A stretch of DNA of 21,352 bases from the IMG/VR virus record IMGVR_UViG_3300020205_001242, positions 1-21,352 of that record. The stretch is one strand, 5' to 3'. Shown here piece after piece: positions 3,348-18,265 of this stretch. Position 1 is the stretch's first letter. The number at the start of each line of letters is the position of its first letter. The notes below the pieces were generated by a model that worked only from the letters and a program-made list of their open reading frames with translations, had not been told where the DNA came from and made no database searches. Source of the stretch: a virus. Made by a program: the position numbers and the translations under genes.

Positions 3348-3373
3348 TTTGTTTGTGAAGTTAGGAAGGGAAA

Positions 3374-3738: not shown

Positions 3739-3744
3739 TACTAA

Positions 3745-3915: not shown

Positions 3916-3951
3916 ACTATAGGTCCAGTTTCGAGGTGAGTAACTTTAATT
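3910..3951 (-). promoter_or_regulatory. Repeated early-type promoter element, copy 7
   Basis: Spacer CCTCGAAACTGGACC, TATAGT, ATGAGC. Upstream gene stop (AAGTAATTAAAG) abuts it. Confidence 0.75.
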
Positions 3952-4093: not shown

Positions 4094-4134
4094 GAGTTTG
4101 TTTGTATTTTGAGAAAAGTTGATGATTTCACTGC

Positions 4135-4221
4135 AGTGGATGACCTTTGACCCGTGTGCAGTAGAATTGAAGAAAAAACAGGTTTTTGCTTCAGTGGTGG
4201 ACTGGGTTCTCAGCGAGACTC
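4135..4221 (-). repeat. Dispersed ~87-nt intergenic repeat, copy A
   Basis: Matches 9950-10037 over GGATGAC, TGTGCAG, AGAAAAA-CAGGTTTT, CAGTGGTGGAC and GTTCTCAG. On the minus strand both copies follow a gene stop and can form a short hairpin (here CAGT/ACTG around CCACC) plus an A5-CCTG-T5 hairpin, so the repeat may act as a terminator or processing site. The gap from 4094 to 4230 holds nothing else I can see. Confidence 0.55.
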
Positions 4222-4230
4222 AAGTGAGAC

Positions 4231-4422
4231 TCACAGGGTCTGCCAGTCTTGTGCCTCTTTCAAGTTAGAGTTAAAGAACTTTTGTAGGATAGACTCAATT
4301 ACTGGTTGCCACTGTTTATCTTTAATTGAGTCACGATTCTGTGCTTCAACAAGAAACTTAAGAATGCAAGTCTCCTCATTGGCAGTGAAGTCAACGCGAG
4401 TGAAAGTGTAACCGTCGGTCAT
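4231..4422 (-). CDS. Hypothetical protein (63 aa)
   Basis: The ATG at 4422 overlaps the upstream TGA (TGATGA); a longer frame would need a TTG. Product MTDGYTFTRVDFTANEETCI, then LKFLVEAQNRDSIKDKQWQP and FFNSNLKEAQDWQTL. No motif recognised. Confidence 0.75.
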   Translation of the reverse strand: MTDGYTFTRVDFTANEETCILKFLVEAQNRDSIKDKQWQPVIESILQKFFNSNLKEAQDWQTL

Positions 4423-4580
4423 CAATCATCTCCAAAGTTGTTAGCAAGAAAGTCTTCAAGTTCAGCGAGTTTGGTAGGAGTTAATGTCCAAACATATTCG
4501 CTGATGATTGTAGCGAGAAGGTCAGGATCTTCACGACATTTCTCATTCAGAAAGAACTCAAGTTCAGTGAGTTTGTTCAT
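4422..4580 (-). CDS. Hypothetical acidic helical protein (52 aa)
   Basis: MNKLTELEFFLNEKCREDPD, then YVWTLTPTKLAELEDFLANN. It holds two similar leucine-rich helices (LTELEFFLNE and LAELEDFLAN), suggesting an internal duplication or a helical hairpin. Function unknown. Third of five genes after element copy 8. Confidence 0.7.
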   Translation of the reverse strand: MNKLTELEFFLNEKCREDPDLLATIISEYVWTLTPTKLAELEDFLANNFGDD

Positions 4581-4582
4581 AA

Positions 4583-4750
4583 TCAAACAGGAAAAACTTC
4601 TACAGAACGAATAAGATTTGTGCGATCTTGTGCTAGGTAATCATCAGCGATTTTACCACAAGATGAACGAGATTGAATAATCTTTTCCTCATAGAGATTC
4701 TCATCTTCATCAGGAACCCAATACTCAATCAGCATACGGTAGTTGTTCAT
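4583..4750 (-). CDS. Hypothetical protein (55 aa)
   Basis: The ATG at 4750 overlaps the stop of the upstream gene (TGATG). Product MNNYRMLIEYWVPDEDENLY, ending NLIRSVEVFPV. Predicted mixed alpha/beta; no motif recognised. Confidence 0.7.
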   Translation of the reverse strand: MNNYRMLIEYWVPDEDENLYEEKIIQSRSSCGKIADDYLAQDRTNLIRSVEVFPV

Positions 4751-4998
4751 CAGTAGTGTGCCTCAGAGTAGTCAAGAACTTCGCTGTACTTAGCGATACC
4801 ATCATAGCAACGCTTTGCCATTTCAGAGTCACCTTCAGCAACGTAACCTTTCAGAAACTCAAAGCAGTATTTGATACGCTGCTCAGGAGTAACTTTAGCG
4901 AGTTGTTGTTGCTTACGCTCATAAGCGGCGTTGTATGCAAACATTTCACGATCTTCGAGGGAGATGTTGTGAAACTTGCGGTCAGTAGTGTTGCTCAT
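4750..4998 (-). CDS. Hypothetical protein (82 aa)
   Basis: MSNTTDRKFHNISLEDREMF, then a charged helix ERKQQQLAKVTPEQRIKYC and GIAKYSEVLDYSEAHY. There is no other Met near the N-terminus, so the ATG in element copy 8 is the likely start. No motif recognised. First gene of a five-gene unit. Confidence 0.75.
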   Translation of the reverse strand: MSNTTDRKFHNISLEDREMFAYNAAYERKQQQLAKVTPEQRIKYCFEFLKGYVAEGDSEMAKRCYDGIAKYSEVLDYSEAHY

Positions 4999-5034
4999 AC
5001 TATAGGTCCACTTTGAAGGTGAGTAACTTTAATT
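4993..5034 (-). promoter_or_regulatory. Repeated early-type promoter element, copy 8
   Basis: Spacer CCTTCAAAGTGGACC, TATAGT, ATGAGC. Drives genes 4998 to 3950. Confidence 0.75.
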
Positions 5035-5039
5035 GGTCG

Positions 5040-5303
5040 TTACCAAGTACCTCTTTGAACGTGAATGTTACGGATTTCAGTATAAATGAACTCTTTTAGT
5101 TTCTTGTCGTCAGTATTATCAAAAGCATAATAAAGACGATTCAAATACTCATCTTGCGTTGCACATTTGATTGTTTCTTTGCTGCTCATTCCAATCTCAT
5201 TCAGTGTAGAACCTGCCTTAACTTTGCTCTTGCCGAAGTTACCAGATATGCGACCTTCAGTACGAAGTTTGGGACGAATCTTTGAAAGGTTAGAGTATGT
5301 CAT
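5040..5303 (-). CDS. Basic hypothetical protein (87 aa)
   Basis: MTYSNLSKIRPKLRTEGRIS is strongly basic, followed by GNFGKSKVKAGSTLNEIG, and the C-terminus is mixed charge (DEYLNRLYYAFDNTDDKKLK). The basic N-terminus could bind nucleic acid, but that is a guess. Its ATG overlaps the upstream stop by 4 nt (ATGA). Last gene of the unit from element copy 9. Confidence 0.75.
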   Translation of the reverse strand: MTYSNLSKIRPKLRTEGRISGNFGKSKVKAGSTLNEIGMSSKETIKCATQDEYLNRLYYAFDNTDDKKLKEFIYTEIRNIHVQRGTW

Positions 5304-5485
5304 TCTTCCCCCAGTTCTTCATCGTCAACAGGGAACATTTCAGTATATTCTTCATCAGTCAAAGTAAGGAACTGAACATCAGCATCTTTGTGGTCTTCGG
5401 CATACATCAACTGATAATGTGCAAAGTGACTCAAACTGGTGCTGCCATACTCTACAACACCATCAACAAGGCAAAGGTAGTTCAT
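5300..5485 (-). CDS. Acidic hypothetical protein (61 aa)
   Basis: MNYLCLVDGVVEYGSTSLSH, then MYAEDHKDADVQFLTLTDEE and a very acidic tail (DDEELGEE). Overlaps both neighbours by 4 nt. Function unknown. Confidence 0.75.
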   Translation of the reverse strand: MNYLCLVDGVVEYGSTSLSHFAHYQLMYAEDHKDADVQFLTLTDEEYTEMFPVDDEELGEE

Positions 5486-5721
5486 CGTGCAACAATATCC
5501 ACGGATTCCAACAGCATCATCGCAAGTTCCATCTGATTGTCTTCATCAATCACAGGAATGTTTGCATCTACAAACTCACTTGCAAGTTGCCCCAAAAGTT
5601 CAATGGTTCGCTCATCCGCAAATACAGCAGTCGCAAACTCATTTTTGAATCCATCACGCAGAAGTTTAAGGGACTTTGTTACAGTGACTTCGTTAATTGT
5701 GTTGTTCATTGTGTAACTCAT
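5482..5721 (-). CDS. Hypothetical protein (79 aa)
   Basis: Start at 5721 overlaps the upstream stop (ATGA); a second Met at 5709 (MNNTINEVTVTKSL) is possible. Helical and acidic (ADERTIELLGQLASEFVDAN, then QMELAMMLLESVDIVAR). No motif recognised. Confidence 0.75.
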   Translation of the reverse strand: MSYTMNNTINEVTVTKSLKLLRDGFKNEFATAVFADERTIELLGQLASEFVDANIPVIDEDNQMELAMMLLESVDIVAR

Positions 5722-6149
5722 TTCGCGTACAAATAACCACCCGACCAGTCTGCATTTTCCAGCAGATACTCACGATCAGCAATTAATCGTAGGTCATAAC
5801 GAAAACCTTTAGCAGGTGCTTTCCAACTGGCAGACTTGTAAATCTGCCCTGTCTGCTTATCAATGAAGCAATGAACACTGCGGGAACCGCCACCATTAAC
5901 CAGAATCACTTTGTGATACTTTTTACCAGACTCAATAGTATAATCAATGTCACACTTGCCAGACTTGAGTTCATCAACCTTGCGAAGGTGATGCTCTACA
6001 TTCTCACCACGCTCAGCAGAATGCTGATGACCGCGAATAGAATACTGACGATAGTTGTCTTTCAGTGCTTCAATCAGCAGCAGAGTGTTCTTATACACAT
6101 TCTCTGCGATAGTTTGTTGTGCTTGTGCTTGCATTGTAGGAGTGCTCAT
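5718..6149 (-). CDS. Conserved-type phage hypothetical protein (143 aa)
   Basis: Start in element copy 9 (MSTPTMQAQAQQTIAENVYK) or at the Met at 6134. A helical N-terminal half with His-rich GHQHSAERGENVEHHL is followed by a beta domain with GGSRSVHCFIDKQTGQIYKS, then ASWKAPAKGFRYDL and GGYLYAK. The SVHxFIDxxTGxIYKxAxWKAPAKGxRYxL pattern is widespread in phage hypotheticals I recognise. Function unknown. First gene of a four-gene unit. Confidence 0.8.
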   Translation of the reverse strand: MSTPTMQAQAQQTIAENVYKNTLLLIEALKDNYRQYSIRGHQHSAERGENVEHHLRKVDELKSGKCDIDYTIESGKKYHKVILVNGGGSRSVHCFIDKQTGQIYKSASWKAPAKGFRYDLRLIADREYLLENADWSGGYLYAK

Positions 6150-6184
6150 ACTATAGGTCCACTTTGGAGGTGAGTAACTTTAAT
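6144..6184 (-). promoter_or_regulatory. Repeated early-type promoter element, copy 9
   Basis: Spacer CCTCCAAAGTGGACC, TATAGT, ATGAGC. GATTAAAG supplies the TAA of the methyltransferase-like gene at 6180. Confidence 0.75.
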
Positions 6185-6731
6185 CCAGTGGTAGTTTTGC
6201 TTCTGATGTACTCTTGGGGATCATAAGTTCTTCCATAATGATCTGCTTTGGTAGAAAGTTCCAACAATAGTAGCTAGAACTGAACGTAATCTTGTCGTTT
6301 GGTCTACCATCGGGACTGTGAAACTTCATACGCTTGTCAAACATTAACAGTTGCAAATCCTTATCCCTGAACAACTGCTTGGGAGCACTATCATTCAACC
6401 AGGTGTTAGTCATAATGAGAGCAAAAGGTTTCTCAAATGATAGTGCTCGCTCAAAGAACTTACGCTTGTTTGTGAACGGTGGATTGGATACAATTACATC
6501 CCAGTGGAATGGTTCATAGGTGAAGAAATCTTTACCTTCACTGATGTGCGAATGAACTACACTATTTTGTTGAGAGATTTGCTTTACAAACTCACTCTCT
6601 TTAGTATCAAATGGACACCAAACCTTTGCATCTTTGGGAATGTATTTAAGGATTGGAGTTACACCGTAAACGGGTGTATATGCTTCATCTCCACCACCAG
6701 AGGAGAACATTATTTTTTTGGAGTCAATCAT
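6180..6731 (-). CDS. Methyltransferase-like protein with NPPF motif (183 aa)
   Basis: The catalytic-type motif SNPPF (about residues 82-86, NPPFTNKRKFFERAL) is the amino-methyltransferase motif IV. The preceding YTPVYGVTPILKYIPKDAKV and WCPFDTKESEFVKQI match a phage/Firmicutes family of adenine-N6-MTase-like proteins. In these the usual SAM-binding DPxxGxG is replaced by WCPFDTxxS. Expected substrate is DNA adenine, but activity is uncertain without classical motif I. ATG at 6731 with AAGGAG 12 nt upstream. It overlaps the end of the HNH gene by 8 nt and lies downstream of the nuclease-like gene 7152-7649. Confidence 0.75.
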   Translation of the reverse strand: MIDSKKIMFSSGGGDEAYTPVYGVTPILKYIPKDAKVWCPFDTKESEFVKQISQQNSVVHSHISEGKDFFTYEPFHWDVIVSNPPFTNKRKFFERALSFEKPFALIMTNTWLNDSAPKQLFRDKDLQLLMFDKRMKFHSPDGRPNDKITFSSSYYCWNFLPKQIIMEELMIPKSTSEAKLPLD

Positions 6732-7101
6732 TTAATTGCAAATCTCCTTTGTGAAGTTTACGGTGACAACAAGCACACAGAACAATACATTTTTTAATCT
6801 CTTCATCAATCATAGCATAAGATTTGTGGGTTGCTTCTCCCATTTTGAAAGATTTTGTTGATGGATCAATATGGTGAAAATCGAGACAATATGGTGGAAA
6901 TGATTGACCACAACCAGGACAGGGTTTTTGCTTAAAACTATCAATATAATTCCACTTTTTTTGGTTTGCCTTTCTTTGCGACTCTGCCCTTTTTTCTAAA
7001 TTATTTTTTCTCCATTCTGCGTGAGTTTTACTACAATGTTCTTTTTTATCATACCATCTCTTGCGATCATATTCTCTTTTCTTGTCTAAATCTCTTCCCA
7101 T
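6724..7101 (-). CDS. HNH homing endonuclease (125 aa)
   Basis: Basic helical N-terminus (MGRDLDKKREYDRKRWYDKK) then a zinc-binding HNH core: CPGCG, LDFHHIDP (catalytic His pair), a variable loop, and CIVLCACCHRKLH. Probably a free-standing homing endonuclease that cuts DNA at a specific site. The start at 7101 is chosen because the longer frame to 7155 runs through the regulatory hairpin. Inserted between the nuclease-like gene (7152-7649) and the MTase-like gene, ending in an 8-nt overlap (ATGATTGA) with the latter. Expression is likely late, from the octamer in the hairpin loop. Confidence 0.88.
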   Translation of the reverse strand: MGRDLDKKREYDRKRWYDKKEHCSKTHAEWRKNNLEKRAESQRKANQKKWNYIDSFKQKPCPGCGQSFPPYCLDFHHIDPSTKSFKMGEATHKSYAMIDEEIKKCIVLCACCHRKLHKGDLQLND

Positions 7102-7105
7102 AGTT

Positions 7106-7146
7106 AAAAGACGAATGTTATATTTATTTATAAATATTCGTCTTTT
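7106..7146 (-). promoter_or_regulatory. Hairpin with late promoter in loop, upstream of HNH gene
   Basis: Perfect 11-bp inverted repeat AAAAGACGAAT/ATTCGTCTTTT (7106-7116 and 7136-7146) around a 19-nt loop. The loop contains TATAAATA on the minus strand (7125-7132). The 3' arm ends 4 nt before the ATG at 7101, so RNA read through from upstream would hide the start region, while RNA started in the loop would lack the 5' arm. Confidence 0.8.
7125..7132 (-). promoter_or_regulatory. T4-like late promoter octamer TATAAATA
   Basis: Exact T4/cyanophage late consensus on the minus strand, 24 nt upstream of the HNH start and inside the hairpin loop. An overlapping AATAAATA lies at 7121-7128. Confidence 0.7.
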
Positions 7147-7151
7147 AAGTA

Positions 7152-7649
7152 TCATAGAACTCGCGCACCGTACTTATAAATTTCAGTTTTGCATAGATTA
7201 ACCGAAAGACGGGGATCGCGATGATTTCCTTTAATCTTACGTTCCCAGTCTCTTTTAAGTTTAGGAAGAAGAATCATCAGTACATCATCGCCAGTAAGTT
7301 TCCAGATTTCTACAACCTTTGCCCCCTCATAACGTCCGATGTAATGATTAGTATATTTGCCAAGTTTTTCTTCAATCAAATAACGTTCTTGCTCTTCCCA
7401 AGTTTTTTCAACACTAATACCATTATACGTTCCATTGATACGTTTGGCAATAGTAGATTTATATTCACATTCACCCTCTTCATCAACAGCATCAGCACCG
7501 GAGTAGGTCTTTGCTATTTCATGACCAAGAATACTAGCAAGATGAATCTCACGGGAGCGAGCATAAGAGAATGGATCTCCCCAACCTTGTTCTTCACAAA
7601 GTTGATACATTTGCTCGAAAAGTTCTTGAAATTTCTGTTCAGGAGTCAT
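7152..7649 (-). CDS. Putative PD-(D/E)XK restriction-endonuclease-like protein (165 aa)
   Basis: Contains helix ASILGHEIA (Glu44) and then GADAVDEEGECEYKS, which gives D53 and E62-Y-K64. The spacing and GxDAxxxxGxxxEYK context fit the PD-(D/E)XK nuclease core seen in many type II restriction enzymes. Later HYIGRYEGAKVVEIW and NHRDPRLSVNL are unassigned. First gene after element copy 10. It would adjoin the MTase-like gene 6180-6731 if the HNH gene were removed, so a restriction-modification-like pair is inferred. Fold assignment is by eye only. Start ATG 7649. Confidence 0.6.
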   Translation of the reverse strand: MTPEQKFQELFEQMYQLCEEQGWGDPFSYARSREIHLASILGHEIAKTYSGADAVDEEGECEYKSTIAKRINGTYNGISVEKTWEEQERYLIEEKLGKYTNHYIGRYEGAKVVEIWKLTGDDVLMILLPKLKRDWERKIKGNHRDPRLSVNLCKTEIYKYGARVL

Positions 7650-7663
7650 TGATTTCTCAGTGG

Positions 7664-7702
7664 TTATACTATAAGTCCAGTTTAGAGGTGAGTAACTTTA
7701 AT
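7664..7702 (-). promoter_or_regulatory. Repeated early-type promoter element, copy 10
   Basis: Variant: TTAAAGTTACTCACCTCTAAACTGGACT, -10-like TATAGT, then ATAACC, so no ATG. The ATA is in frame with the ATG 18 nt downstream at 7649. The usual GGACC is GGACT. Confidence 0.7.
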
Positions 7703-8079
7703 CAACCCCAAGTCTTTTTCTTTTTATACTTCCCGAAGTCATTACCTTTCATTCTCTCACTTATCTTTTTGCAGTGCTCTTCACTTCTTTGTTTATATTT
7801 TTTACCCTTCAGTGCTTCACTAATCTTTCTTTTTTCCTCTTCAGTTCTTGGTCTTCTTTTTCTACCTTTTAGAGTTTCGCTACGTTTCTTATTACTTTCA
7901 GGTGTGCGGGGAAATGTCTTCATAAACTCACTATGTTCTGGACTTGGAATACCAAAATTGACAGGTTTTATGTTTGGTTTGTAAATCAAATCTTCCTTTG
8001 AGATTTCTTCACATTCCATAAAATCCTGCCAAGATACGTTGAAACATTCGTTCAACGATTGAACGCTTACTTTATTCAT
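7702..8079 (-). CDS. NUMOD3-repeat protein without a nuclease domain (125 aa)
   Basis: The N-terminal half (MNKVSVQSLNECFNVSWQDF, then EEISKEDLIYKPNIKP) is not a GIY-YIG or HNH domain. The rest is a run of about three NUMOD3-type helices: SPEHSEFMKTF, TPESNKKRSETLKGRKR, TEEEKRKISEALKGKKY and SEEHCKKISERMKGND. NUMOD3 is the DNA-binding module of GIY-YIG homing enzymes. This could be a decayed homing gene or a DNA-binding protein derived from one. It keeps an intact hairpin/late-promoter leader (8083-8166) homologous to that of the GIY-YIG gene at 17693-18265. It ends at the TGA before element copy 10. Confidence 0.75.
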   Translation of the reverse strand: MNKVSVQSLNECFNVSWQDFMECEEISKEDLIYKPNIKPVNFGIPSPEHSEFMKTFPRTPESNKKRSETLKGRKRRPRTEEEKRKISEALKGKKYKQRSEEHCKKISERMKGNDFGKYKKKKTWG

Positions 8080-8103
8080 AACTGCTTTATGTTTGGTCTT
8101 GAT

Positions 8104-8111
8104 TATTTATA
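8104..8111 (-). promoter_or_regulatory. T4-like late promoter octamer TATAAATA
   Basis: Exact late consensus on the minus strand inside the outer hairpin, 25 nt upstream of the start at 8079. Confidence 0.7.
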
Positions 8112-8116
8112 TCAAA

Positions 8117-8138
8117 AGAGGGACATTTCTGCCCCTCT
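8117..8138 (-). terminator. Nested rho-independent-like terminator
   Basis: Minus RNA AGAGGG-GCAGAAATGT-CCCTCT followed by TTTT. It would end transcripts of the ligase-like gene 8170-9090 or early read-through RNA before the homing-type gene. Confidence 0.65.
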
Positions 8139-8169
8139 AATGTGCTTGTGCGACCAAACATAAGCATTA

Positions 8170-9090
8170 TTATTTAGACCAACTCTTTGGAATCACAAAG
8201 TTATTATAGGAGAAAACTTCTCTATCAACGACTTTATAAATGCCGTATTTGTTGGAGATACAATAACCTTCGTGGAAGGAATCAATGCCGTCGATAGAAC
8301 ATTCGATGTCGTCCTCTTCGTGAATGAACAGGAACAAATCGTCCTTGATTGTCTTCACCAACTTCCACAAAGAGATCAGGTATTTGTCACAATCACATTT
8401 TTCTGCAATTTCATCTTCATCAATGACCCTTTGCTCGCGGATGCAGGCATTGATCTCTTTTTTGATTTGTGATGCCTTACGGTCACTCACAAACTCACAT
8501 AGAGTGCTCATTTGCTTGGCAAACTTACACACATCCTCCAGATCCTCACGATAAGGATTCAGAGACACGTTAGGTTGCACAAACAGAACGTGCTTAGTGC
8601 TCACAAACTTGCTGGTGATAGGGTGTGCTACCATTTCAGGCAGACGCTCACCAGTGTAGTAAGTGTGAGGACAAATGATAATCTCCTGACGCACAATCTC
8701 AGGAAACTTGTAGGCAATCGTATTGGGTTTGAATGTATCAAGACCCTTACCAAAACCAATAAAATCTCCTTGATACACTTGTTTAGTGCGAGGCAGGAAA
8801 TCTAGACAATAGAGAAGGATTTGAGTTACACTTGGTTGATGTCCAAAGTGTGTAAAAATGTCATCTTGGTTATAGCAGAGGCGAATCTTTTGCTTGTTAA
8901 ATGCTGCTTTGGTACAGACAAAAAACTTACCATTCTCGGGATTAGTGCCCCACACAATAGCAGGAGCACCGTCCATCTTGACACTGATAGTAGAATCAGC
9001 ACTGAACCAATCGAGCACCGAAAGATCACCATTAAGGATGGCATCTTCTGGGTGCTCAAGATGTTTGTTCTGCATTGGTTGTTTGCTCAT
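8170..9090 (-). CDS. Ligase-like nucleotidyltransferase (KxDG protein, 306 aa)
   Basis: ISVKMDGAPAIVWGT (K38, D40, G41) is motif I of covalent nucleotidyltransferases (DNA/RNA ligases, capping enzymes), where the Lys carries the AMP. Further signatures are FVCTKAAFN, YQGDFIGFGKG, FKPNTIAYKFP and, near residue 275, FHEGYCISNKYGIYKVVDRE. The last resembles motif IV (EG) followed by motif V (K). I recognise this layout as a phage ligase-like family (DUF6267-type) found in cyanophages; the substrate is unknown and no OB domain is evident. Start at the ATG in element copy 11 (MSKQPMQNKH) or the Met at 9075. Followed by the nested terminator at 8117-8138. Confidence 0.75.
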   Translation of the reverse strand: MSKQPMQNKHLEHPEDAILNGDLSVLDWFSADSTISVKMDGAPAIVWGTNPENGKFFVCTKAAFNKQKIRLCYNQDDIFTHFGHQPSVTQILLYCLDFLPRTKQVYQGDFIGFGKGLDTFKPNTIAYKFPEIVRQEIIICPHTYYTGERLPEMVAHPITSKFVSTKHVLFVQPNVSLNPYREDLEDVCKFAKQMSTLCEFVSDRKASQIKKEINACIREQRVIDEDEIAEKCDCDKYLISLWKLVKTIKDDLFLFIHEEDDIECSIDGIDSFHEGYCISNKYGIYKVVDREVFSYNNFVIPKSWSK

Positions 9091-9126
9091 ACTATAGGTC
9101 CAGTTTGAAGGTGAGTAACTTTAATT
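9085..9126 (-). promoter_or_regulatory. Repeated early-type promoter element, copy 11
   Basis: Spacer CCTTCAAACTGGACC, TATAGT, ATGAGC. Drives the ligase-like gene. Confidence 0.75.
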
Positions 9127-9129
9127 AGG

Positions 9130-9333
9130 TCAAACTTGCACCAGTTTAGCAAGACGATTGCGAATATCAAAGATCTCCATTTCATCCATATCTACGGCAT
9201 CCAAATCTACAGGAGCAAACTCCTCAAGATTTACATTACCGTCAGCATAGATGGGTGCATAATACAACTCATCGCCGTCTTCTTGCGACAGAGTATAGAC
9301 GCAACCGTGACCAGGAACAGTGAGAAAAATCAT
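9130..9333 (-). CDS. Acidic hypothetical protein (67 aa)
   Basis: Start at 9333: MIFLTVPGHGCVYTLSQEDG, then DELYYAPIYADGNVNLEEFA and DLDAVDMDEMEIFDIRNRL. An upstream Met at 9351 would add six residues. A compact beta protein with an acidic middle; no motif recognised. It follows the strong hairpin at 9363-9392, so its expression depends on read-through or on processing there. Confidence 0.75.
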   Translation of the reverse strand: MIFLTVPGHGCVYTLSQEDGDELYYAPIYADGNVNLEEFAPVDLDAVDMDEMEIFDIRNRLAKLVQV

Positions 9334-9362
9334 TGGAGTTTTTAGGAACAAAGGTACAATAA

Positions 9363-9392
9363 AGGAGCACCTGCTAAATTACAAGTGCTCCT
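9363..9392 (-). terminator. Strong hairpin, likely terminator (possibly bidirectional)
   Basis: AGGAGCAC and GTGCTCCT form an 8-bp stem around a 14-nt loop, followed on the minus strand by TTTATTGT. It lies just after the stop of the membrane protein gene 9404-9670. Confidence 0.7.
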
Positions 9393-9403
9393 GTGACAAT
9401 TTA

Positions 9404-9670
9404 TCAAGCGGCAACGCGCTTGCGAGTTTTGGTAACTTTTACTGCTTGAGTGTTAGTGGTAGGCAACACATTTGCATTGACTGCACTATAAACAAAAGCA
9501 GTAAAACGATTCACAATGAAGAGAGTTTGATTGACAAACTTGCGAACTTTATTTGCACCATCGTTCTCATTAAAAGCACGAATCATGAACTGACTCACAC
9601 CAACGATGATAGCACTGATGGTAGCAACATTGCGAACAAGAGTGTCAACGAACTTCCAGAAAAAAGTCAT
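9404..9670 (-). CDS. Small membrane protein with basic tail (88 aa)
   Basis: MTFFWKFVDTLVRNVATISA, then IIVGVSQFMI: one probable TM segment at about residues 15-31. A second, weaker hydrophobic stretch is TLFIVNRFTAFVYSAVN. The C-terminus is basic (VKVTKTRKRVAA). Probably a host-membrane protein. First gene after element copy 12, with an unusually long leader of about 33 nt. Confidence 0.75.
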   Translation of the reverse strand: MTFFWKFVDTLVRNVATISAIIVGVSQFMIRAFNENDGANKVRKFVNQTLFIVNRFTAFVYSAVNANVLPTTNTQAVKVTKTRKRVAA

Positions 9671-9702
9671 GGTTTGAGTTAGAAACTTCTGTGAGTGCGG
9701 TG

Positions 9703-9744
9703 CCTCACACTATAGGTCCACTTTGGAGGTGAGTAATTTTAATT
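9703..9744 (-). promoter_or_regulatory. Repeated early-type promoter element, copy 12
   Basis: AATTAAAATTACTCACC (one G to A change), spacer CCTCCAAAGTGGACC, TATAGT, then GTGTGAGGC, so no start codon. TAA of the gene at 9739 lies inside it. Confidence 0.7.
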
Positions 9745-9915
9745 CACAGGAAGTTTTGCCATTGATTTACCCTTTTTGTGGTCATCAATGAACTTCCTAG
9801 CTGATGCTTCGGTCCTGCACACTTTGAGTTGCTCTCCGTTGTGAATGACCATCAGTTGATTGCCAAAAGGAATGGCAGCATAGGTGTCTTTGAACATCGT
9901 AAATCCTTCTTTCAT
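9739..9915 (-). CDS. Hypothetical protein (58 aa)
   Basis: MKEGFTMFKDTYAAIPFGNQ, then LMVIHNGEQLKVCRTEASAR and KFIDDHKKGKSMAKLPVN. A start at 9897 (MFKDTY) has AAGGA 7 nt upstream and is a good alternative. Small beta-beta-alpha type; function unknown. Ends on the TAA inside element copy 12 and follows repeat copy B. Confidence 0.75.
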   Translation of the reverse strand: MKEGFTMFKDTYAAIPFGNQLMVIHNGEQLKVCRTEASARKFIDDHKKGKSMAKLPVN

Positions 9916-9949
9916 AGTTACACTTTCAAAAAAATCGTAATTTTGATTG

Positions 9950-10037
9950 CGGCGGATGACTCATAGCACCTGTGCAGTGAAATTGCAGAAAAATCAGGTT
10001 TTCAGTCCAGTGGTGGACAGCGTTCTCAGTGGGTCTC
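9950..10037 (-). repeat. Dispersed ~87-nt intergenic repeat, copy B
   Basis: Homologous to 4135-4221. On the minus strand it starts inside the last codons of the GIY-YIG gene (AATGAGACCCACTGAGAAC) and contains GTCCA-CCAC-TGGAC and AAAA-CCTGA-TTTT hairpins. The hairpin stem differs from copy A but a stem is still possible. Likely a terminator or structured spacer. Confidence 0.55.
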
Positions 10038-10613
10038 ATTTGAGATTTGATATTTTTCTGCTCGCCATCCTTTATGTTTTCCATAGTTATAAAATGCAGA
10101 AGGATTAAAGTGGTTTACTCTACACCATTCTGTTAAGTTAGATACTATTAGCGTTTCTCCTGTGGGTGAAGTTACCTTCCACATTAGAGAGTGAGAGTCT
10201 TTCAACTTGCAAATATGTTCCTTTGAAAGTTTCTTTCCCTTCCTTGCTTTACTAACCTTTTCCCTTGCTTCTTTATCATGAGTTCTTCCACTCCATATTT
10301 TATTTCCCATCATTCTACTACTTCTTAATGAGCATACTTCTGGGGGTGTAATATAACCAGAAGCACCTCCAGTTCCACCTTCAGATAAGTTTTGTAGGAT
10401 GCCTGTTCCCAAATCTTTCCTACCAAAAATAGAAATCATATACATTTCGTGTTTGAGAGCATCACTTTCATTTACAAATTTTTTCAAGATAAGTATCCTA
10501 TCTTTAGGTGGTAGATTTATTCTGTGGTTGAGAGAATATGCTCTTCTACCTGAACCTTTTCCAATATAATAGGGAGTTCTATCTTCCCGCAAATAAGCGT
10601 AAGTGTAATACAT
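10026..10613 (-). CDS. GIY-YIG homing endonuclease with NUMOD3 (195 aa)
   Basis: Residues 1-90 are a GIY-YIG nuclease domain: MYYTYAYLREDRTPYYIGKG, GRRAY (catalytic Arg), HEMYMISIFGRKDLGTG (metal-binding Glu) and LQNLSEGG. Then come NUMOD3-like helices (DKEAREKVSKARKGKKLS, EHICKLKD) and a C-terminal NUMOD1/helix-turn-helix-like region (TLIVSNLTEWCRVNHFNPSA). The start at 10613 is set by the paralogue at 18265 (MEYYTYAYLRED) and by the hairpin ending at that ATG; a longer frame to 10655 runs through the hairpin. Sits after the helicase gene; its 3' end overlaps the repeat at 9950-10037. Confidence 0.9.
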   Translation of the reverse strand: MYYTYAYLREDRTPYYIGKGSGRRAYSLNHRINLPPKDRILILKKFVNESDALKHEMYMISIFGRKDLGTGILQNLSEGGTGGASGYITPPEVCSLRSSRMMGNKIWSGRTHDKEAREKVSKARKGKKLSKEHICKLKDSHSLMWKVTSPTGETLIVSNLTEWCRVNHFNPSAFYNYGKHKGWRAEKYQISNETH

Positions 10614-10695
10614 TTGTGTCCTGGCAAGACTATATCTATTTATCCATAATAGCATAAAAGTGGGACTTATGCAACTTAAATCTGCCAGGACACAA
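10614..10695 (-). promoter_or_regulatory. Hairpin leader with late promoter, GIY-YIG gene
   Basis: Perfect 13-bp inverted repeat TTGTGTCCTGGCA/TGCCAGGACACAA (10683-10695 with 10614-10626). The 3' arm contains AGGA and ends directly at the ATG. Inside lie a small hairpin GCATAA/TTATGC (10652-10672) and GATAAATA (10637-10644). Confidence 0.85.
10637..10644 (-). promoter_or_regulatory. T4-like late promoter octamer GATAAATA
   Basis: Matches the cyanophage late consensus NATAAATA, 24 nt upstream of the GIY-YIG start and between the hairpin arms. Confidence 0.65.
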
Positions 10696-10715
10696 GTTGC
10701 TGCCCACTCTATGAT

Positions 10716-11963
10716 TTAGCGGTTCACAGTAGAGATGCAGGGTTCACCTTTAGTGAAGATGGTGTCAACAACTGCTTGAACTTTACGAGCAGTTGAAATA
10801 CCAGCAGAAGTATAGACTGGAATCACACAGAGAGCAAAAGATTTGGTATATTGACCAAGTGCTCCAGGTGTAATCTTACCATCAGCAATACCTTTAGCGT
10901 CATCGTGGTGAAGGCGAACAATGCGACCAACAGATTGTGCAATTCCAATATAATCCATAGGACGCATAAAGATTACTGCATCAAGACCAGAGACCGAAAT
11001 ACCTTCACAGATAATAGAGTGGTGAATGACAACAAACTTCTTATCATTGTCCTTACCCCACTCATTTAGAACATCAAAAAATACCTCACGATTGACTTTT
11101 TTACCATCAATAATTGCACCTGTACGACTTGTAATCACCATCCAAGAGTAACCACGATCCTCCAGTTCTTTGCAAAAGTCAGTCTCAGAAATCAGACCAA
11201 TGATTTGCTTAGTAGTCTTAGCACAGATGAGTGCTTTAGTTACACCATAATCATCAATAGTCTCCATCAGATTCTCTGCATCTCGGTCAAAGATAACCTG
11301 ACGACCTTTAACCATAGGAAGTTGCTTAACTTCTACTTTAGGAGGAACAATGTAACCTCCACGAACCATCTCAGGACCAGAGACATTTGCAATGATTTGT
11401 CCATACACTTCACCCCAGTTCATACCAGGTTTGCCAACAACATTAGAGTTTTTGGGAGTTGCAGTGTAGGAATAAAATCGCTTGGCAGTTTTGGAGAAAT
11501 ACTCTACAGCAGGGAAGAAATGTTTTTGCACACTATTATGTGCCTCATCCATATGAATCGTATCAACATCAATCCCTGCCTGCTGAAGGCGAGAAAGAGA
11601 ATGATAGGTGGTGAAGATAAGTTTGTGAGAATCCTTATGAGTATTCATCCAGTTACGAATCTCATAAGGACGAGTAGAAGATTCCCAGTGAGTTTCTCCA
11701 CTGTGGCAGTGAAATACCTTTGCATTAGTGATAAACTCCAGATATTCGTGTGAAAGTTGCTCTGCCAGCAGAATCCGAGGACTAACTACAACAACAGTTT
11801 TAGGAGTTTCTGATGCAAACTCACGAACAGTATCAGCAACACCAACAAGAGTTTTACCTGCACCCGTAACAGCACAGATGATACCTTTGTTGTGCTTCTG
11901 CATAGCAGCAACGCCACGTTCTTGGTGCGGACGGAGTTGGATTTGCATTGAAGTTGTGCTCAT
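10716..11963 (-). CDS. DEAH-box SF2 DNA helicase, UvsW-like (415 aa)
   Basis: QIQLRPHQERGVAAM (Q-motif-like), Walker A AVTGAGKT (31-38), motif Ia VVVSPRILLAEQL, motif II MDEAH (138-142), motif III TATP (167-170), and motif VI AQSVGRIVRLHHDD. The layout is of the RAD3/XPB/UvsW type; T4 UvsW (587 aa) unwinds branched recombination intermediates, and this protein is shorter. It probably acts in phage replication and recombination in the cytoplasm. Start in element copy 13 (MSTTSMQIQLRPHQ); the Met at 11948 is also plausible. First gene of its unit, followed by the homing gene. Confidence 0.88.
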   Translation of the reverse strand: MSTTSMQIQLRPHQERGVAAMQKHNKGIICAVTGAGKTLVGVADTVREFASETPKTVVVVSPRILLAEQLSHEYLEFITNAKVFHCHSGETHWESSTRPYEIRNWMNTHKDSHKLIFTTYHSLSRLQQAGIDVDTIHMDEAHNSVQKHFFPAVEYFSKTAKRFYSYTATPKNSNVVGKPGMNWGEVYGQIIANVSGPEMVRGGYIVPPKVEVKQLPMVKGRQVIFDRDAENLMETIDDYGVTKALICAKTTKQIIGLISETDFCKELEDRGYSWMVITSRTGAIIDGKKVNREVFFDVLNEWGKDNDKKFVVIHHSIICEGISVSGLDAVIFMRPMDYIGIAQSVGRIVRLHHDDAKGIADGKITPGALGQYTKSFALCVIPVYTSAGISTARKVQAVVDTIFTKGEPCISTVNR

Positions 11964-11999
11964 AATATAGGTCCACTTTGGAGGTGAGTAACTTTAATT
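11958..11999 (-). promoter_or_regulatory. Repeated early-type promoter element, copy 13
   Basis: Spacer CCTCCAAAGTGGACC, -10-like TATATT, ATGAGC. The TAA in AATTAAAG ends the methyltransferase gene at 11994. Confidence 0.75.
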
Positions 12000-12665
12000 A
12001 ATGAAAGATAAAATACTTTCAGTTTGACTGTCTATGCGGTTTTTTGTTAAATCGAAATATTCCTGGTTTAGCTCTATTCCGATAAAGTTTCTGCCACATT
12101 GTTTAGCAGCAACACCAATAGCACCGCTACCCATACAGGGATCTAGAACTATGTCTCCTGGGTTTGAACTTGCTTCAATCAATCTGGACATTAGTTTGAC
12201 TGGTTTTGGTGTGGGGTGATCTTTGTATCTTTCAGTCGCACAACGCCAAACTGCAGATTTACAATGCTCATTAAATGTTGCACCAGACTTCTTTGCGAAT
12301 ACACAGTTTTCTATGCTGGATAACCATATGTGCTGTCCATTCATTGGGGAAGGATTTGTTTTTTCCCACACACAATGCCGTACAGATAAACCTTTTTCGA
12401 TCAATCTATTGCGAATGTGTGAGACTTGAACTGATCCACAAAAAATATAAATGCTCCCAGAAGTCACGCGCACAACCTCATCAATAAAATTATCTAGAGG
12501 AAATGTGATAATGTCTGCGTGACTTTTATCAAGATTTCTTAAACCACCACTCTTACGATTTACCTCATCATATGGTATATCAGTGAGAGTAAGTGAAACA
12601 CTCCCATCAGCAAGTGAAGGGAGTACATTCATACAATCGTCGTTATAAAGTTTTACATTAGTCAT
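11994..12665 (-). CDS. Beta-class DNA amino-methyltransferase (223 aa)
   Basis: Motif IV TDIPY (D29-Y32, a DPPY variant) comes before the SAM-binding motif I LDPCMGSGAIGVAA (174-187), with HPTPKPVKLM and FIGIELNQEYFDL also present. This order defines beta-class N4-cytosine/N6-adenine MTases; the variable middle (about 40-140) would read the target. IPY in place of PPY is unusual. Starts by an 8-nt overlap (ATGACTAA) with the upstream nuclease-like gene. It may modify phage DNA or protect it from the partner. Ends on the TAA in element copy 13. Confidence 0.88.
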   Translation of the reverse strand: MTNVKLYNDDCMNVLPSLADGSVSLTLTDIPYDEVNRKSGGLRNLDKSHADIITFPLDNFIDEVVRVTSGSIYIFCGSVQVSHIRNRLIEKGLSVRHCVWEKTNPSPMNGQHIWLSSIENCVFAKKSGATFNEHCKSAVWRCATERYKDHPTPKPVKLMSRLIEASSNPGDIVLDPCMGSGAIGVAAKQCGRNFIGIELNQEYFDLTKNRIDSQTESILSFIN

Positions 12666-13293
12666 AATTGAATATAATTGTACTTGGACATACTTTAGTT
12701 AGTCTATCCCAACTAACGGGTACACTAATTGTAGTCCATCCATTGTTTTTTGCATACTTATGATTTCTCATTGGAAATTTATTATTTTCAAATCCAGATT
12801 TCAATTCTTTACGCATAATCAATGCTGCTTTTTTGTGATAGGGGAGAATGTAAAGAATAGCATCATTGATTTTGTGATTACAGACTGCCCAACCAGGAAC
12901 AGGCATTTTGTTAGAATAAGGTCCAAAATCTTGACTTACAATTTCTGCGAGAAAATCATCATAGTACAGATTTTTATCCCTGAACTTGTAGTCTAAAGTA
13001 AATCCCTTACGCTTTACTATTCTTGATTTGAACTCAACCAGATCAAAGGTACAATCAACTCCTGCTTTATTTTTGAATTGAGAAAGGTTATCTTTTCCAT
13101 AGTTATCTTCAAAACTATCATAATCTATAGACAAACCGAACTTACTCTCCAGTTCAACATTTAGTTGGTGAATAACAGAAAGATGTTCGCCTCTTTCAAT
13201 AATTTGCTTTTCCTTTTCAAGAGATTGTTGGAAGTTGTGAAGTTTATGATTTTTAAGATAGGGTTTTGAGACAGAATAGGAAGTTTTTTTCAC
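12658..13293 (-). CDS. Putative PD-(D/E)XK endonuclease, partner of the MTase (211 aa)
   Basis: The core KAGVDCTFDL (D80), TLDYKFR (D101-Y-K103), YYDDFLAEIVS (E117) and PGWAVCNHKINDAILYI fits a PD-(D/E)XK fold of the type found in some restriction enzymes (GVD...xxxYKxR...DFxxEIVS...GW). Alternative reading: E87-F-K89. The N-terminus (1-75) is helical and charged. Start is a GTG at 13293 (GTG AAA AAA). It overlaps the MTase by 8 nt, so the two are probably translated together, as in a compact type II restriction-modification pair. First gene after element copy 14. Assignment by eye; specificity unknown. Confidence 0.65.
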   Translation of the reverse strand: MKKTSYSVSKPYLKNHKLHNFQQSLEKEKQIIERGEHLSVIHQLNVELESKFGLSIDYDSFEDNYGKDNLSQFKNKAGVDCTFDLVEFKSRIVKRKGFTLDYKFRDKNLYYDDFLAEIVSQDFGPYSNKMPVPGWAVCNHKINDAILYILPYHKKAALIMRKELKSGFENNKFPMRNHKYAKNNGWTTISVPVSWDRLTKVCPSTIIFNYD

Positions 13294-13329
13294 TTTGAAT
13301 AATAAGATTGAGTTGAGTTTGGTGGTGTA

Positions 13330-13370
13330 CCTACATTATAGGTCCACTTTGGAAGTGAGTAACTTTAATT
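13330..13370 (-). promoter_or_regulatory. Repeated early-type promoter element, copy 14
   Basis: Spacer CTTCCAAAGTGGACC, canonical -10 TATAAT, then GTAGGT with no start codon. TAA for the gene ending at 13365 is in AATTAAAG. The leader to the GTG at 13293 is about 35 nt. Confidence 0.75.
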
Positions 13371-13562
13371 CTCTGCCTGTTTGTAACAGTTTAGTCGATC
13401 AATTACACTCTGCATTGTAGCACGACTGTAACCATTTGCAAAGTAAGGGGACTTCTCAGTTTCTTCGGAGAGAGAATCAACATTCAAGCACACATCAACA
13501 CCTTGTTGAAGAGTCTGAATGATACTATTGAAGACATAATCAGGGACTTGAACGTAATTCAT
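13365..13562 (-). CDS. Conserved-type hypothetical protein (65 aa)
   Basis: Start at 13562 (MNYVQVPDYVFNSIIQTLQQ); the longer frame would run through the terminator hairpin at 13597-13626. Then GVDVCLNVDSLSEETEKSPY and YSRATMQSVIDRL. I recognise the pattern VPxYVFxSIxxxLxxGVD...EKSxYxxGYSRxxM from phage hypotheticals; function unknown. Confidence 0.8.
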   Translation of the reverse strand: MNYVQVPDYVFNSIIQTLQQGVDVCLNVDSLSEETEKSPYFANGYSRATMQSVIDRLNCYKQAEN

Positions 13563-13596
13563 TGTTTTCAGTGGTTTGGTATCTAAAGACAAAAAT

Positions 13597-13626
13597 AGCA
13601 CACTTAGAGGTCAATCTGAGCGTGCT
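13597..13626 (-). terminator. Rho-independent terminator
   Basis: Minus RNA: AGCACGCTCAGA / TCTAAGTGTGCT (12-position stem with one mismatch and one G-U) around a 6-nt loop, followed by ATTTTTG. Lies just after the 51-aa gene 13639-13794. Confidence 0.75.
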
Positions 13627-13638
13627 GGTGGGGGTTAA

Positions 13639-13794
13639 TCAACCGCCGAACATTTCATCAAAAAGCCAATCACCAGAACGCTCTTTTTCTTCCCAGACTT
13701 TGTTAGCGTTTGCTTCAATCATTGCTCGTTCAATCTTCATATCAAGGGCAGATTTGGTGCTGAACCAGTTACCGTTGCGATCTTGCCAGAGCAT
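13639..13794 (-). CDS. Small hypothetical protein (51 aa)
   Basis: MLWQDRNGNWFSTKSALDMK, then IERAMIEANANKVWEEKERS and GDWLFDEMFGG. The ATG at 13794 lies about 20 nt after the element copy 15 (which has ATA instead of ATG) and is out of frame with it, so the element only supplies transcription here. Ends before a terminator. Function unknown. Confidence 0.75.
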   Translation of the reverse strand: MLWQDRNGNWFSTKSALDMKIERAMIEANANKVWEEKERSGDWLFDEMFGG

Positions 13795-13808
13795 TGTTTG
13801 AGTGTCGT

Positions 13809-13850
13809 GCTTATACTATAGATCCACTTTGGAGGTGAGTAACTTTAATT
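13809..13850 (-). promoter_or_regulatory. Repeated early-type promoter element, copy 15
   Basis: Spacer CCTCCAAAGTGGATC, TATAGT, ATAAGC (no ATG). Confidence 0.75.
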
Positions 13851-13854
13851 GGAC

Positions 13855-14544
13855 TCAACTTCCAGATGCTTGTGCTGCTGCTTTTGCTTTTGCTCTCATT
13901 TGAACAGCAACTTTACTGTTCCACTTTCCACCTTTCTCCTCATATTCTCTACGCATTTGTGCAAGAATCTCAGTAGAAGATTTCTTAGTCTTTTGTGCTG
14001 CTGCTGTCTTTTCTTTATTTCTTGCTTGATCTCTTTCTTGGCGTGTCATACCACCACCACCTTCATGTTCCCACTTTTTGCGTGGTTTTGCTGGTGTTGA
14101 TTTTGGTGCTTCAGGTTTCTTTGTAGAAAGAAGTTTACTTGCTTGCTTCTCAACGTCTCTTGCCTTTGGTTTTTCTGCTTCAGGTTTTGCACCTCCTTTC
14201 TTTGCAGCAATTCTAGCGAGTGCTGCTTTCTTTCTTTCTTCTTTTGCTGCTGCTGCTGCCTTTGCTTTTACATCAGCAGATCCGCGTTCTTGTTCTGGTT
14301 GCTGAACTCTTGTAGATGCTTGACGTTGAGAACCAATATCTTTGCGTGGTTTGTAACTACTGACGGGTTCCATTTTACCCCCACCAACTGCTCTCATTCG
14401 ACGTATTTCAGGAGTTGTCTTCTTACGCTCAGGGCGAACTCTACCGCCCGCCTGAGCACGTTTGATAGTTGCAGCAAATCCTAATGCTTTGGACTTGTCT
14501 TCAACTTCTTCACAAAGAGACATAAACTCCTGAAATGTTTTCAT
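13855..14544 (-). CDS. Ala/Lys-rich protein, possible internal head protein (229 aa)
   Basis: The N-terminus MKTFQEFMSLCEEVE resembles the capsid-targeting sequence of T4 internal head proteins (MKTYQEFIAEA). The rest is low-complexity and very basic: ADVKAKAAAAAKEERKKAAL, ARIAAKKGGAKPEAEKPKA and PKSTPAKPRKKW, with a C-terminal helix REYEEKGGKWNSKVAVQMRA. A DNA-condensing or packaged internal protein is plausible; scaffold-type is another option. It follows an inverted repeat (14548-14576), and a near-consensus late octamer TCTAAATA lies in its 5' arm. Start ATG 14544. Confidence 0.7.
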   Translation of the reverse strand: MKTFQEFMSLCEEVEDKSKALGFAATIKRAQAGGRVRPERKKTTPEIRRMRAVGGGKMEPVSSYKPRKDIGSQRQASTRVQQPEQERGSADVKAKAAAAAKEERKKAALARIAAKKGGAKPEAEKPKARDVEKQASKLLSTKKPEAPKSTPAKPRKKWEHEGGGGMTRQERDQARNKEKTAAAQKTKKSSTEILAQMRREYEEKGGKWNSKVAVQMRAKAKAAAQASGS

Positions 14545-14547
14545 TGG

Positions 14548-14576
14548 TATCTAAACACTACTTTTTAGTATTTAGA
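14548..14576 (-). terminator. Hairpin between 14572-14772 and 13855-14544
   Basis: ATCTAAA ... TTTAGAT with inner ACTA/TAGT forms a long A/T stem. The upstream gene's TAA lies in the 5' arm. It could be a terminator or a regulatory stem for the downstream gene, like the homing-gene leaders but without an exact late octamer. Confidence 0.5.
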
Positions 14577-14772
14577 TGTCATCTTCCTTTGCTTTATAGG
14601 AACCTTTGAATACGCGACCTTCTGCATAAAATTGCTTCACACGTTCGCGGCGAGTAGCAAGAAGCAAATCATACTCTTCTTGTTGTTGTTTAGTGAACAC
14701 AAAATCTTGACGCCGCCAAGCATCTTTCAGTTCTTTAATGTGAGGCAGCACGTTAGGGATTTGTTCAGTCAT
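14572..14772 (-). CDS. Hypothetical protein (66 aa)
   Basis: MTEQIPNVLPHIKELKDAWR, then FTKQQQEEYDLLLATRRERV and KQFYAEGRVFKGSYKAKEDD. Helical and charged; the FTxxQQxxYDxLLAxRRERVxxFY stretch looks like a conserved phage family, function unknown. Ends within the hairpin at 14548-14576. Confidence 0.8.
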   Translation of the reverse strand: MTEQIPNVLPHIKELKDAWRRQDFVFTKQQQEEYDLLLATRRERVKQFYAEGRVFKGSYKAKEDDI

Positions 14773-14776
14773 TTGT

Positions 14777-14962
14777 TCAGGATACAGTAGAATCGGGGTC
14801 AGTAGAAGTTTGAGTGGACACTTGTTCAGGTGTCACACGAAGATTGTAAGGAGAATTGAAGAACCTGCGAAAAGCAGTAGAAACAATAATAAACGCTGAG
14901 ATAACACCAACCAAACCAAGGATGGTAACAGCATCGCCTCCAAAAGTATAAGTTTCAGGCAT
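14777..14962 (-). CDS. Small single-TM membrane protein (61 aa)
   Basis: MPETYTFGGDAVTILGLVGV, then ISAFIIVSTAF: one TM segment at about residues 12-31, followed by a basic RRFF and a Thr/Ser-rich soluble tail. Probably N-out/C-in by the positive-inside rule. Function unknown. Second gene after 14965-15117. Confidence 0.75.
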   Translation of the reverse strand: MPETYTFGGDAVTILGLVGVISAFIIVSTAFRRFFNSPYNLRVTPEQVSTQTSTDPDSTVS

Positions 14963-14964
14963 AA

Positions 14965-15117
14965 TCAGTAATCATAGTTTCCGTTAATGTATTCATTCAA
15001 GTTAAACTTTGAAGGTTGCTCACTCCCTTCATCTTCATCAAAGAGACCTTCATTCATTTCCTCAACAAAATCAAAAGAAGAAAACTCTTCGATTTGAATG
15101 TCGTCGAAGCGATCCAT
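14965..15117 (-). CDS. Acidic small protein (50 aa)
   Basis: MDRFDDIQIEEFSSFDFVEE, then MNEGLFDEDEGSEQPSKFNL and NEYINGNYDY. Strongly acidic. ATG at 15117, 18 nt beyond the -10-like box of element copy 16. Function unknown; a DNA mimic is conceivable from the charge but not shown. Confidence 0.7.
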   Translation of the reverse strand: MDRFDDIQIEEFSSFDFVEEMNEGLFDEDEGSEQPSKFNLNEYINGNYDY

Positions 15118-15129
15118 AATTTGTTTCGT

Positions 15130-15170
15130 GCTTACATTATAGGTCCACTTTGGAGGTGAGTAACTTTTAT
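15130..15170 (-). promoter_or_regulatory. Repeated early-type promoter element, copy 16
   Basis: AAAAGTTACTCACC, spacer CCTCCAAAGTGGACC, canonical -10 TATAAT, then GTAAGC. This is the last copy; none is seen from 15171 to the right edge. Confidence 0.75.
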
Positions 15171-15583
15171 CAGCGACTCATTATTGCTTTCATTCTTGCT
15201 TTCTTTGCCGACAGTTCAGCACCTGCTTCGTGTTCCATTTCTCCGTGTGCCTGACGGATTTGCATCCCCTTCCAACGTGCAGATTGTTTCGCAACTTGCT
15301 TGTTATATTCACTTGGTTGCATTGTTGGATGCTGTTCCTGAATCTTCTTAACGGATTTTGCTAACTTCTTCAGTCTCTTTGTTACTTCCTTTCCACCACT
15401 ACGCTTTACAACTAACTTATCAATTTCTTTTTTCTTTGGTTTACCTAATGGACCATCATATTTCTGAAGAGTATAAGAAATATTCCCTTCACTATCTCTA
15501 TTATAAGTTCCAGGAACTGCGTGTGGAGGAGTATCAGGTTTCTTTCCTTCACAGATTTGATAGAACTCTCTAAATGTCAACAT
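15170..15583 (-). CDS. Basic protein with capsid-targeting-like N-terminus (137 aa)
   Basis: MLTFREFYQICEGKKPDTPP has the xTFxEFxxxCE pattern of T4-type internal head proteins and of the neighbour at 13855-14544. The rest is basic: GPLGKPKKKEIDKLVVKRSG, VTKRLKKLAKSVKKI and SAKKARMKAIMSR. It has its own exact late octamer (15603-15610), so it is probably expressed late and packaged or structural. Function inferred only from N-terminus, charge and promoter. Confidence 0.75.
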   Translation of the reverse strand: MLTFREFYQICEGKKPDTPPHAVPGTYNRDSEGNISYTLQKYDGPLGKPKKKEIDKLVVKRSGGKEVTKRLKKLAKSVKKIQEQHPTMQPSEYNKQVAKQSARWKGMQIRQAHGEMEHEAGAELSAKKARMKAIMSR

Positions 15584-17662: not shown

Positions 17663-17701
17663 ACCTTGTCATTATAGGGCATCCAGAGCGTCCTACAAGG
17701 T
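17663..17701 (-). promoter_or_regulatory. Inverted repeat enclosing a TATAAT promoter-like box
   Basis: ACCTTGT and ACAAGGT flank CCCTATAATG on the minus strand, with TTGTAG 16 nt upstream of TATAAT. The 5' arm overlaps the stop codon of the GIY-YIG gene. Probably the promoter of 17218-17643; the hairpin may terminate the homing-gene transcript. Confidence 0.45.
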
Positions 17702-18265
17702 CTCATGAGACACTTCTTCTACTGTCACAAGGTCTTTGTAAGTTTTCCATTTACCATATGCTATATTTTTTATTCCTGATGCCGAGTAACCATTATTTAC
17801 TGCCCAACGTTGTAATGCTTTTATGATAATTTCTCTTCCGTCATTATAAACTATCCTCCAAGTTTTTGCTCTTGGATTATTCACACCACTAACATCTAAA
17901 CCATTTTCATATCTTTCCTTCATCATTTGTCTGTTTATTTCTTTTTGGTGTTCTGGTATTGTTCCACCCTTATTCCAAGCAGGAACACCTTTACCACCTT
18001 TACCACCGTCGCTCATATTTCTCAAAATACCTGTCCCCAAATCTTTCCTTCCAAGAATAAAAATCATATAGGTTTCGTGTCTATATGCTTCATCTTCTGT
18101 TAGATTATTTTTAAGAATAACTATTCTATCTTTTTCTGGGGGAGCAAAATATCCACCTTTGGTTTTACTTCTCCAGTGTTTTACATACGCTCTATTTCCT
18201 TTCCCCTTACCAATATAATAAGGCGTCCCATCTTCACGCAGGTAAGCGTAAGTGTAGTATTCCAT
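17693..18265 (-). CDS. GIY-YIG homing endonuclease (190 aa)
   Basis: GIY-YIG domain at residues 1-90: MEYYTYAYLREDGTPYYIGK, GNRAY (Arg), HETYMIFILGRKDLGTG (Glu), LRNMSDGG. This is followed by a linker (GVPAWNKGGTIPEHQKE) and a C-terminal DNA-binding region (TWRIVYNDGREIIIKALQRW, AVNNGYSASGIKNIAYG). Paralogue of 10026-10613: nuclease domains are close, DNA-binding parts differ, so the targets should differ. It lies between 18358-18522 and 17218-17643. The leader is the nested hairpin at 18267-18347. Confidence 0.9.
   Translation of the reverse strand: MEYYTYAYLREDGTPYYIGKGKGNRAYVKHWRSKTKGGYFAPPEKDRIVILKNNLTEDEAYRHETYMIFILGRKDLGTGILRNMSDGGKGGKGVPAWNKGGTIPEHQKEINRQMMKERYENGLDVSGVNNPRAKTWRIVYNDGREIIIKALQRWAVNNGYSASGIKNIAYGKWKTYKDLVTVEEVSHETL

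Follow-up and report, generated by a model that had tools for sequence, protein, structure and literature searches.

A predicted nuclease-methyltransferase gene pair of T4-like marine cyanophages and its probable role in restriction-modification

The IMG/VR virus record IMGVR_UViG_3300020205_001242, analyzed here over its whole length of 21,352 bases (the window), carries two overlapping genes, REA and MT, which probably constitute a Type II-like restriction-modification pair. Short stretches of the window are shared with the Synechococcus phages S-SZBM1, S-SRM01 and S-PM2, and further phage genes, e.g., those for a helicase and DUF6267, are encoded in it. The literature searched describes phages as bearing orphan methyltransferases and as being attacked by restriction, and reports complete pairs for large eukaryotic viruses, namely chloroviruses and marseilleviruses. 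As far as the searched papers (few subscription-only ones among them) and databases show, the recurrent use of REA-MT by T4-like cyanophages is new.

REA (211 aa, GTG start) extends over 12658-13293 and MT (223 aa, ATG start) over 11994-12665, both on the minus strand; the two overlapping frames proposed by the sequence-only reading are indeed open over these positions. The description of REA draws on its ORF, its IMG/VR relatives, an AlphaFold2 model, structural matches and dN/dS values, that of MT on Pfam, PHROGs, PADLOC and PDB matches. The stop codon of REA and the start codon of MT share 8 nt (12658-12665, minus strand) in an ATGAnTGA-type arrangement, which recurs in 30 of the 31 related loci listed, among them loci that are only 35-40% identical and a few near-copies. 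The overlap makes translational coupling of the two genes likely.

An intergenic repeat of about 41 nt (minus-strand sequence AATTAAAGTTACTCACCTCCAAAGTGGACCTATAGTATGAG) occurs in the window in 16 copies, from 223 to 15201. Copy 14 (13330-13370, minus strand) lies upstream of the pair, and copy 13 (11959-12000, minus strand) starts at the MT stop codon and closes the REA-MT module, both copies being defined by alignment of the repeat family. Because these two copies flank REA-MT, the pair forms a separate module. Of the earlier proposal that the genes make up a promoter unit of their own behind copy 14, the separate module thus stands; the promoter is only a possibility, a sigma-70 scan of the repeats having found no site inside the copies. 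The repeat does contain a TATAAT-like hexamer, and copy 14 is possibly a promoter or a recombination seam. In many copies an ATGAG at the end of the repeat provides an apparent start codon; for the gene at 10716-11963, helicase homologues suggest that the true start is located five codons downstream. The repeat is also present on both sides of REA-MT in L011 and L012, the contigs closest to the window, and was not found at the loci of seven other contigs checked. In L012 the REA-MT module is placed differently among the same small neighbor genes than in the window, with repeats flanking it in each. The layouts of L011 and L012 compared with that of the window suggest that the repeats may be sites of shuffling.

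By its sequence, MT is clearly assigned to the beta-class amino-methyltransferases (N6-adenine or N4-cytosine). It matches Pfam N6_N4_Mtase (1.6e-30), phrog_67 (4.3e-63) and PADLOC MTase_II (1e-45) as well as the PDB sequences 5hek (1.3e-26) and MboIIA 1g60 (2.6e-22), and about 2,000 phage records match it. Motif IV (DIPY, residues 29-32, 12570-12581, minus strand), which is invariant in the MT alignment, precedes the AdoMet-binding motif I (DPCMGSG, residues 175-181, 12123-12143, minus strand; located by alignment). This is the order of the beta class and agrees with the class named in the sequence-only reading.

Relatives of REA were detected in IMG/VR scans on 39 other contigs with about 35-97% identity; every one of them is a metagenomic contig, and none comes from a cultured phage. 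Relevant matches were absent from Pfam, PHROGs, NCBIfam, PADLOC and the PDB sequences, as well as from 50,697 phage records, plasmids and two GTDB genome scans, and no sequence match to a characterized restriction enzyme appeared in the databases searched. A phage search with the divergent proteins of L129 and L081 likewise yielded no match. Weak matches of REA such as La (0.039) were set aside as chance, and matches in BFVD were mostly to proteins of unknown function. As far as the searched databases show, REBASE lying outside the search, REA appears to represent a new nuclease family. Three residues, D80 (codon 13054-13056), D101 and K103 (codons of D101-Y102-K103 at 12985-12993, all minus strand), do not vary in any of the 29 sequences of one alignment or in L129, i.e., down to about 36% identity. 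The same holds for E117 (codon 12943-12945, minus strand), an additional acid within DFLAE on the next strand, and all four residues are also constant in a second alignment, of 18 sequences. Regarding selection, the median dN/dS is 0.24 for REA and 0.064 for MT, both values indicating purifying selection.

The AlphaFold2 model of REA (pLDDT 86, pTM 0.82) gave I-Ssp6803I (E 8.5e-3, prob 0.97) and BglI as its first Foldseek matches. In VIA-align, the first 18 rows were all PD-(D/E)XK nucleases (Z 5.0-6.4), including Eco15I (Z 6.4, rmsd 4.6, 118 aligned), NhoI, ThaI, HinP1I, PvuII, DpnI and RecU. A separate model of a 40% identical relative (L075; pLDDT 90.5) has largely the same structural neighbors, almost all leading rows again being PD-(D/E)XK nucleases. 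The structural matches of the two models lie at Z 5-7, none strong singly, and the assignment to PD-(D/E)XK follows from their consistency together with the conserved residues. Both models show the core alpha-beta restriction fold of the superfamily, at Z 5-7, values that place REA at superfamily level and do not tell a restriction enzyme, a homing endonuclease and a Holliday-junction resolvase apart. In the REA model D80 lies just before the strand 81-87, while D101 and K103 close the neighboring strand 93-104, so that the acids and the lysine, invariant in 30 sequences, are arranged as D...(D/E)-X-K. REA is accordingly predicted to have a PD-(D/E)XK nuclease fold with the candidate active site D80...D101-X-K103, D80 being the first candidate catalytic acid and D101-Y102-K103 the (D/E)-X-K element. 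BglI and EcoRV likewise have D...D-X-K in place of E-X-K. The sequence-only reading had called the 211-aa protein PD-(D/E)XK-like and had singled out D80, D101, Y102 and K103; the residues are found at these positions, and the AlphaFold check it proposed returned the fold.

The structural neighbors also include RecU and Hjc, as would be expected if REA were a structure- or lesion-specific nuclease (a RecU/Hjc-like resolvase, or an enzyme of nicking or repair) sharing a transcript only by chance with an orphan methyltransferase that serves in anti-restriction, and orphan phage methyltransferases can indeed protect from host restriction (PMC4190342). We regard this explanation as improbable: obligate pairing and patchy presence in close relatives, both described below, are unexpected for a replication or repair enzyme, and REA occurs in none of the cultured phages among the phage records searched. 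The structures of Eco15I and NhoI, among the highest VIA-align rows, contain methylated target DNA, and the two belong to methylation-dependent enzymes (BisI family; PMC11347163), which would fit a modification-dependent (Type IV-like) nuclease. Such a nuclease would attack the phage's own MT-marked DNA if both proteins had the motif in common, and for the related idea that REA is a non-catalytic partner of MT, the invariant active-site residues make a dead enzyme unlikely; we give these two possibilities very little credence.

The distribution of the genes argues for restriction-modification. Among 38 checkable contigs, from which L126 and L128 were excluded because they end inside REA, REA directly precedes the same MT clade on 36 (35 relatives and the window), an amino-methyltransferase gene thus adjoining the nuclease gene as in Type II systems. 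On the remaining two (L129 and L130) a divergent REA, about 36-39% identical, overlaps a different upstream gene by 11 nt, whose matches to methyltransferases, though weak, are significant (PADLOC 1.6e-7, phrog_498 1.8e-6). Among complete cases, REA without a methyltransferase gene alongside was never observed (0 cases), i.e., the nuclease was not seen apart from a methyltransferase, while MT genes of the same clade (at least 73% identity) stand without REA on 25 contigs that cover the upstream region. A nuclease that is always accompanied by a methyltransferase, and a methyltransferase that is often alone, is the pattern predicted by restriction-modification. The pair postulated by the sequence-only reading is therefore supported by the predicted fold, this one-way dependence, the 8-nt overlap and the swap of partner in the divergent relative. 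That REA is a random ORF beside a lone methyltransferase was rejected in view of its conservation, dN/dS and pairing.

The divergent REA and the 400-aa methyltransferase-like gene (CPPYYDLELYGG) are located at 1085-1651 in L129 and 927-2685 in L130, among replication genes of a different type of phage. They are possibly a second restriction-modification lineage.

A protein of about 335 aa with ParB/Srx-like features (phrog_27790, unknown function) is encoded about 20-440 nt downstream of most MT genes that lack REA. It was recorded at L031, L034, L044, L062, L064, L065, L066, L071, L076, L077, L079, L080, L083 and L084, also at L073, and at L075, L078 and L132. At REA-carrying loci it is absent save for three with a divergent REA, giving 3 of 29 REA-carrying against 14 of 19 REA-less loci (Fisher 1e-5, with too few independent changes behind the counts). 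It was considered as an alternative nuclease partner of MT, but its relatives in the cultured phages MED4-213, S-CAM3, P-SSM2 and S-MS29 have no adjoining gene of the MT clade, so that the partnership is not obligate.

REA-MT has the pattern of a mobile cassette of T4-like marine cyanophages. It follows gp23 in four contigs (L005, L009, L018 and L021), lies between regA and the following replication genes in four others (L014, L117, L120 and L132) and after a helicase gene in L040 and L121, and is found elsewhere in early-gene islands. In the cultured phage Bellamy only 157 nt separate regA and hsp20. Two natural near-isogenic pairs differ at precisely this place: behind a nearly identical gp23, L009 carries REA-MT and L088 carries MT, and behind a nearly identical regA and leader, REA is present in L128 and MT in L079. 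On the MT tree REA is patchy, with 10 changes in the best reconstruction, at least 4 of which are forced by well-supported branches. Distances between REA sequences correlate with those between MT sequences (Spearman 0.41), a value reached by 3 of 2000 permutations.

Presence and absence of REA beside MT in near-isogenic phages would be equally expected if REA were a free-standing homing endonuclease of the PD-(D/E)XK type invading MT-carrying phages, with MT as its target or neighbor and not its partner. This is the main rival to the restriction-modification reading and a serious one, although we consider it unlikely. The top Foldseek match of REA is a homing endonuclease, I-Ssp6803I; free-standing homing nucleases are employed by T4-like cyanophages, F-CphI of S-PM2 being one (PMC6083498); and the window itself encodes GIY-YIG-like and HNH types. 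A homing enzyme would be expected to have one long flanking site and no obligate partner; the upstream sequences at the insertion points vary (gp23, regA, helicase, early islands), and a paired gene accompanies REA in every case. Because these upstream contexts vary, the homing target would have to be within MT, where insertion of REA leaves it intact, and carrier phages would be cutting their own DNA. The exact overlap of 8 nt is moreover retained down to 35% identity, degenerate REA copies were not seen, and in L129 and L130 REA stands beside a different methyltransferase-like gene, all of which speaks against homing.

Other nuclease-like genes of the window were noted on the minus strand. 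A 165-aa protein (7152-7649) with a DAVD...EYK stretch has a weak PvuII endonuclease match (Pfam 8.6e-4, under the gathering score) and relatives in the cultured phages P-SSM2 (64%) and P-TIM68 (55%), with no methyltransferase annotated alongside in P-SSM2. An HNH-like gene (6724-7155) overlaps this PvuII-like gene by 4 nt and, by 8 nt, a gene for a 183-aa methyltransferase-like protein (6180-6731; phrog_799, NPPF motif), so that 6180-7155 is a second nuclease and methyltransferase-like cluster in the window. Two related GIY-YIG-type homing-endonuclease-like proteins are encoded at 10026-10655 and 17693-18265, with 70-77% DNA identity over parts.

For the restriction-modification reading we infer cleavage by REA, a specificity shared with MT, the targets and the timing as follows. 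MT would methylate a short DNA motif in the phage genome, and REA, a small PD-(D/E)XK nuclease, would cut the same motif when unmethylated. Packaged phage DNA would carry the methylation from the previous round; as incoming phage DNA would then already be marked, REA would be harmless to it even though made at once, before MT. The coupled MT would re-methylate newly replicated phage DNA, and unmarked DNA, whether of the host chromosome or of a phage co-infecting the cell, would be cut, supplying nucleotides, excluding rivals, or both. A more far-reaching scenario, which we put forward as speculative, is that cyanophages fight one another by restriction-modification: phages with REA-MT would destroy unmarked co-infecting phages, their MT-only relatives would be 'immunity-only', and REA would come and go in an arms race. 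If the restriction-modification reading is true, the phage is a user of restriction, for consumption of host DNA or exclusion of competitors, and REA founds a new family of restriction enzymes, with no relative in any database searched here. The near-isogenic phages with and without REA are natural material for testing the question.

Several known systems resemble REA-MT in part. F-CphI of S-PM2 (PMC6083498) is likewise a mobile nuclease gene from the same phage group, and I-Ssp6803I has the same predicted fold, but for both enzymes pairing with a methyltransferase is not obligate and the target is one long site. The orphan methyltransferases of phages, such as those of lactococcal 936 phages (PMC4190342), are of the same broad class as MT, and the MT relatives without REA are orphans of this kind; MT of the window differs in being coupled to a nuclease gene. 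The GATC restriction-modification system of Marseillevirus (PMC7253447) is also a clade-restricted pair of a large virus and has been proposed to act against co-infecting viruses lacking the pair, host DNA not being degraded; it belongs to an amoebal virus, and its GATC specificity and cutting have been demonstrated. The chlorovirus (PBCV-1) systems share virus-encoded adjoining nuclease and methyltransferase genes, with orphan methyltransferases in relatives, and an early role in degrading host DNA is assumed for their nucleases; in contrast to REA-MT, which is known from sequence, they are proven biochemically, belong to viruses of eukaryotic algae and have the nuclease in the virion (PMC7019647). 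With Type II systems such as PvuII, HinP1I, BglI and MboII, REA-MT has in common the separate, adjoining nuclease and methyltransferase genes, the predicted PD-(D/E)XK fold with D...D-X-K and an N6_N4_Mtase methyltransferase. Unlike these systems, it is carried on contigs of T4-like cyanophages, REA has no sequence similarity to any of the four, and the nuclease gene comes first, with an 8-nt overlap. In the defining features that can be tested from sequence, all of which are present, REA-MT appears to work like a Type II system.
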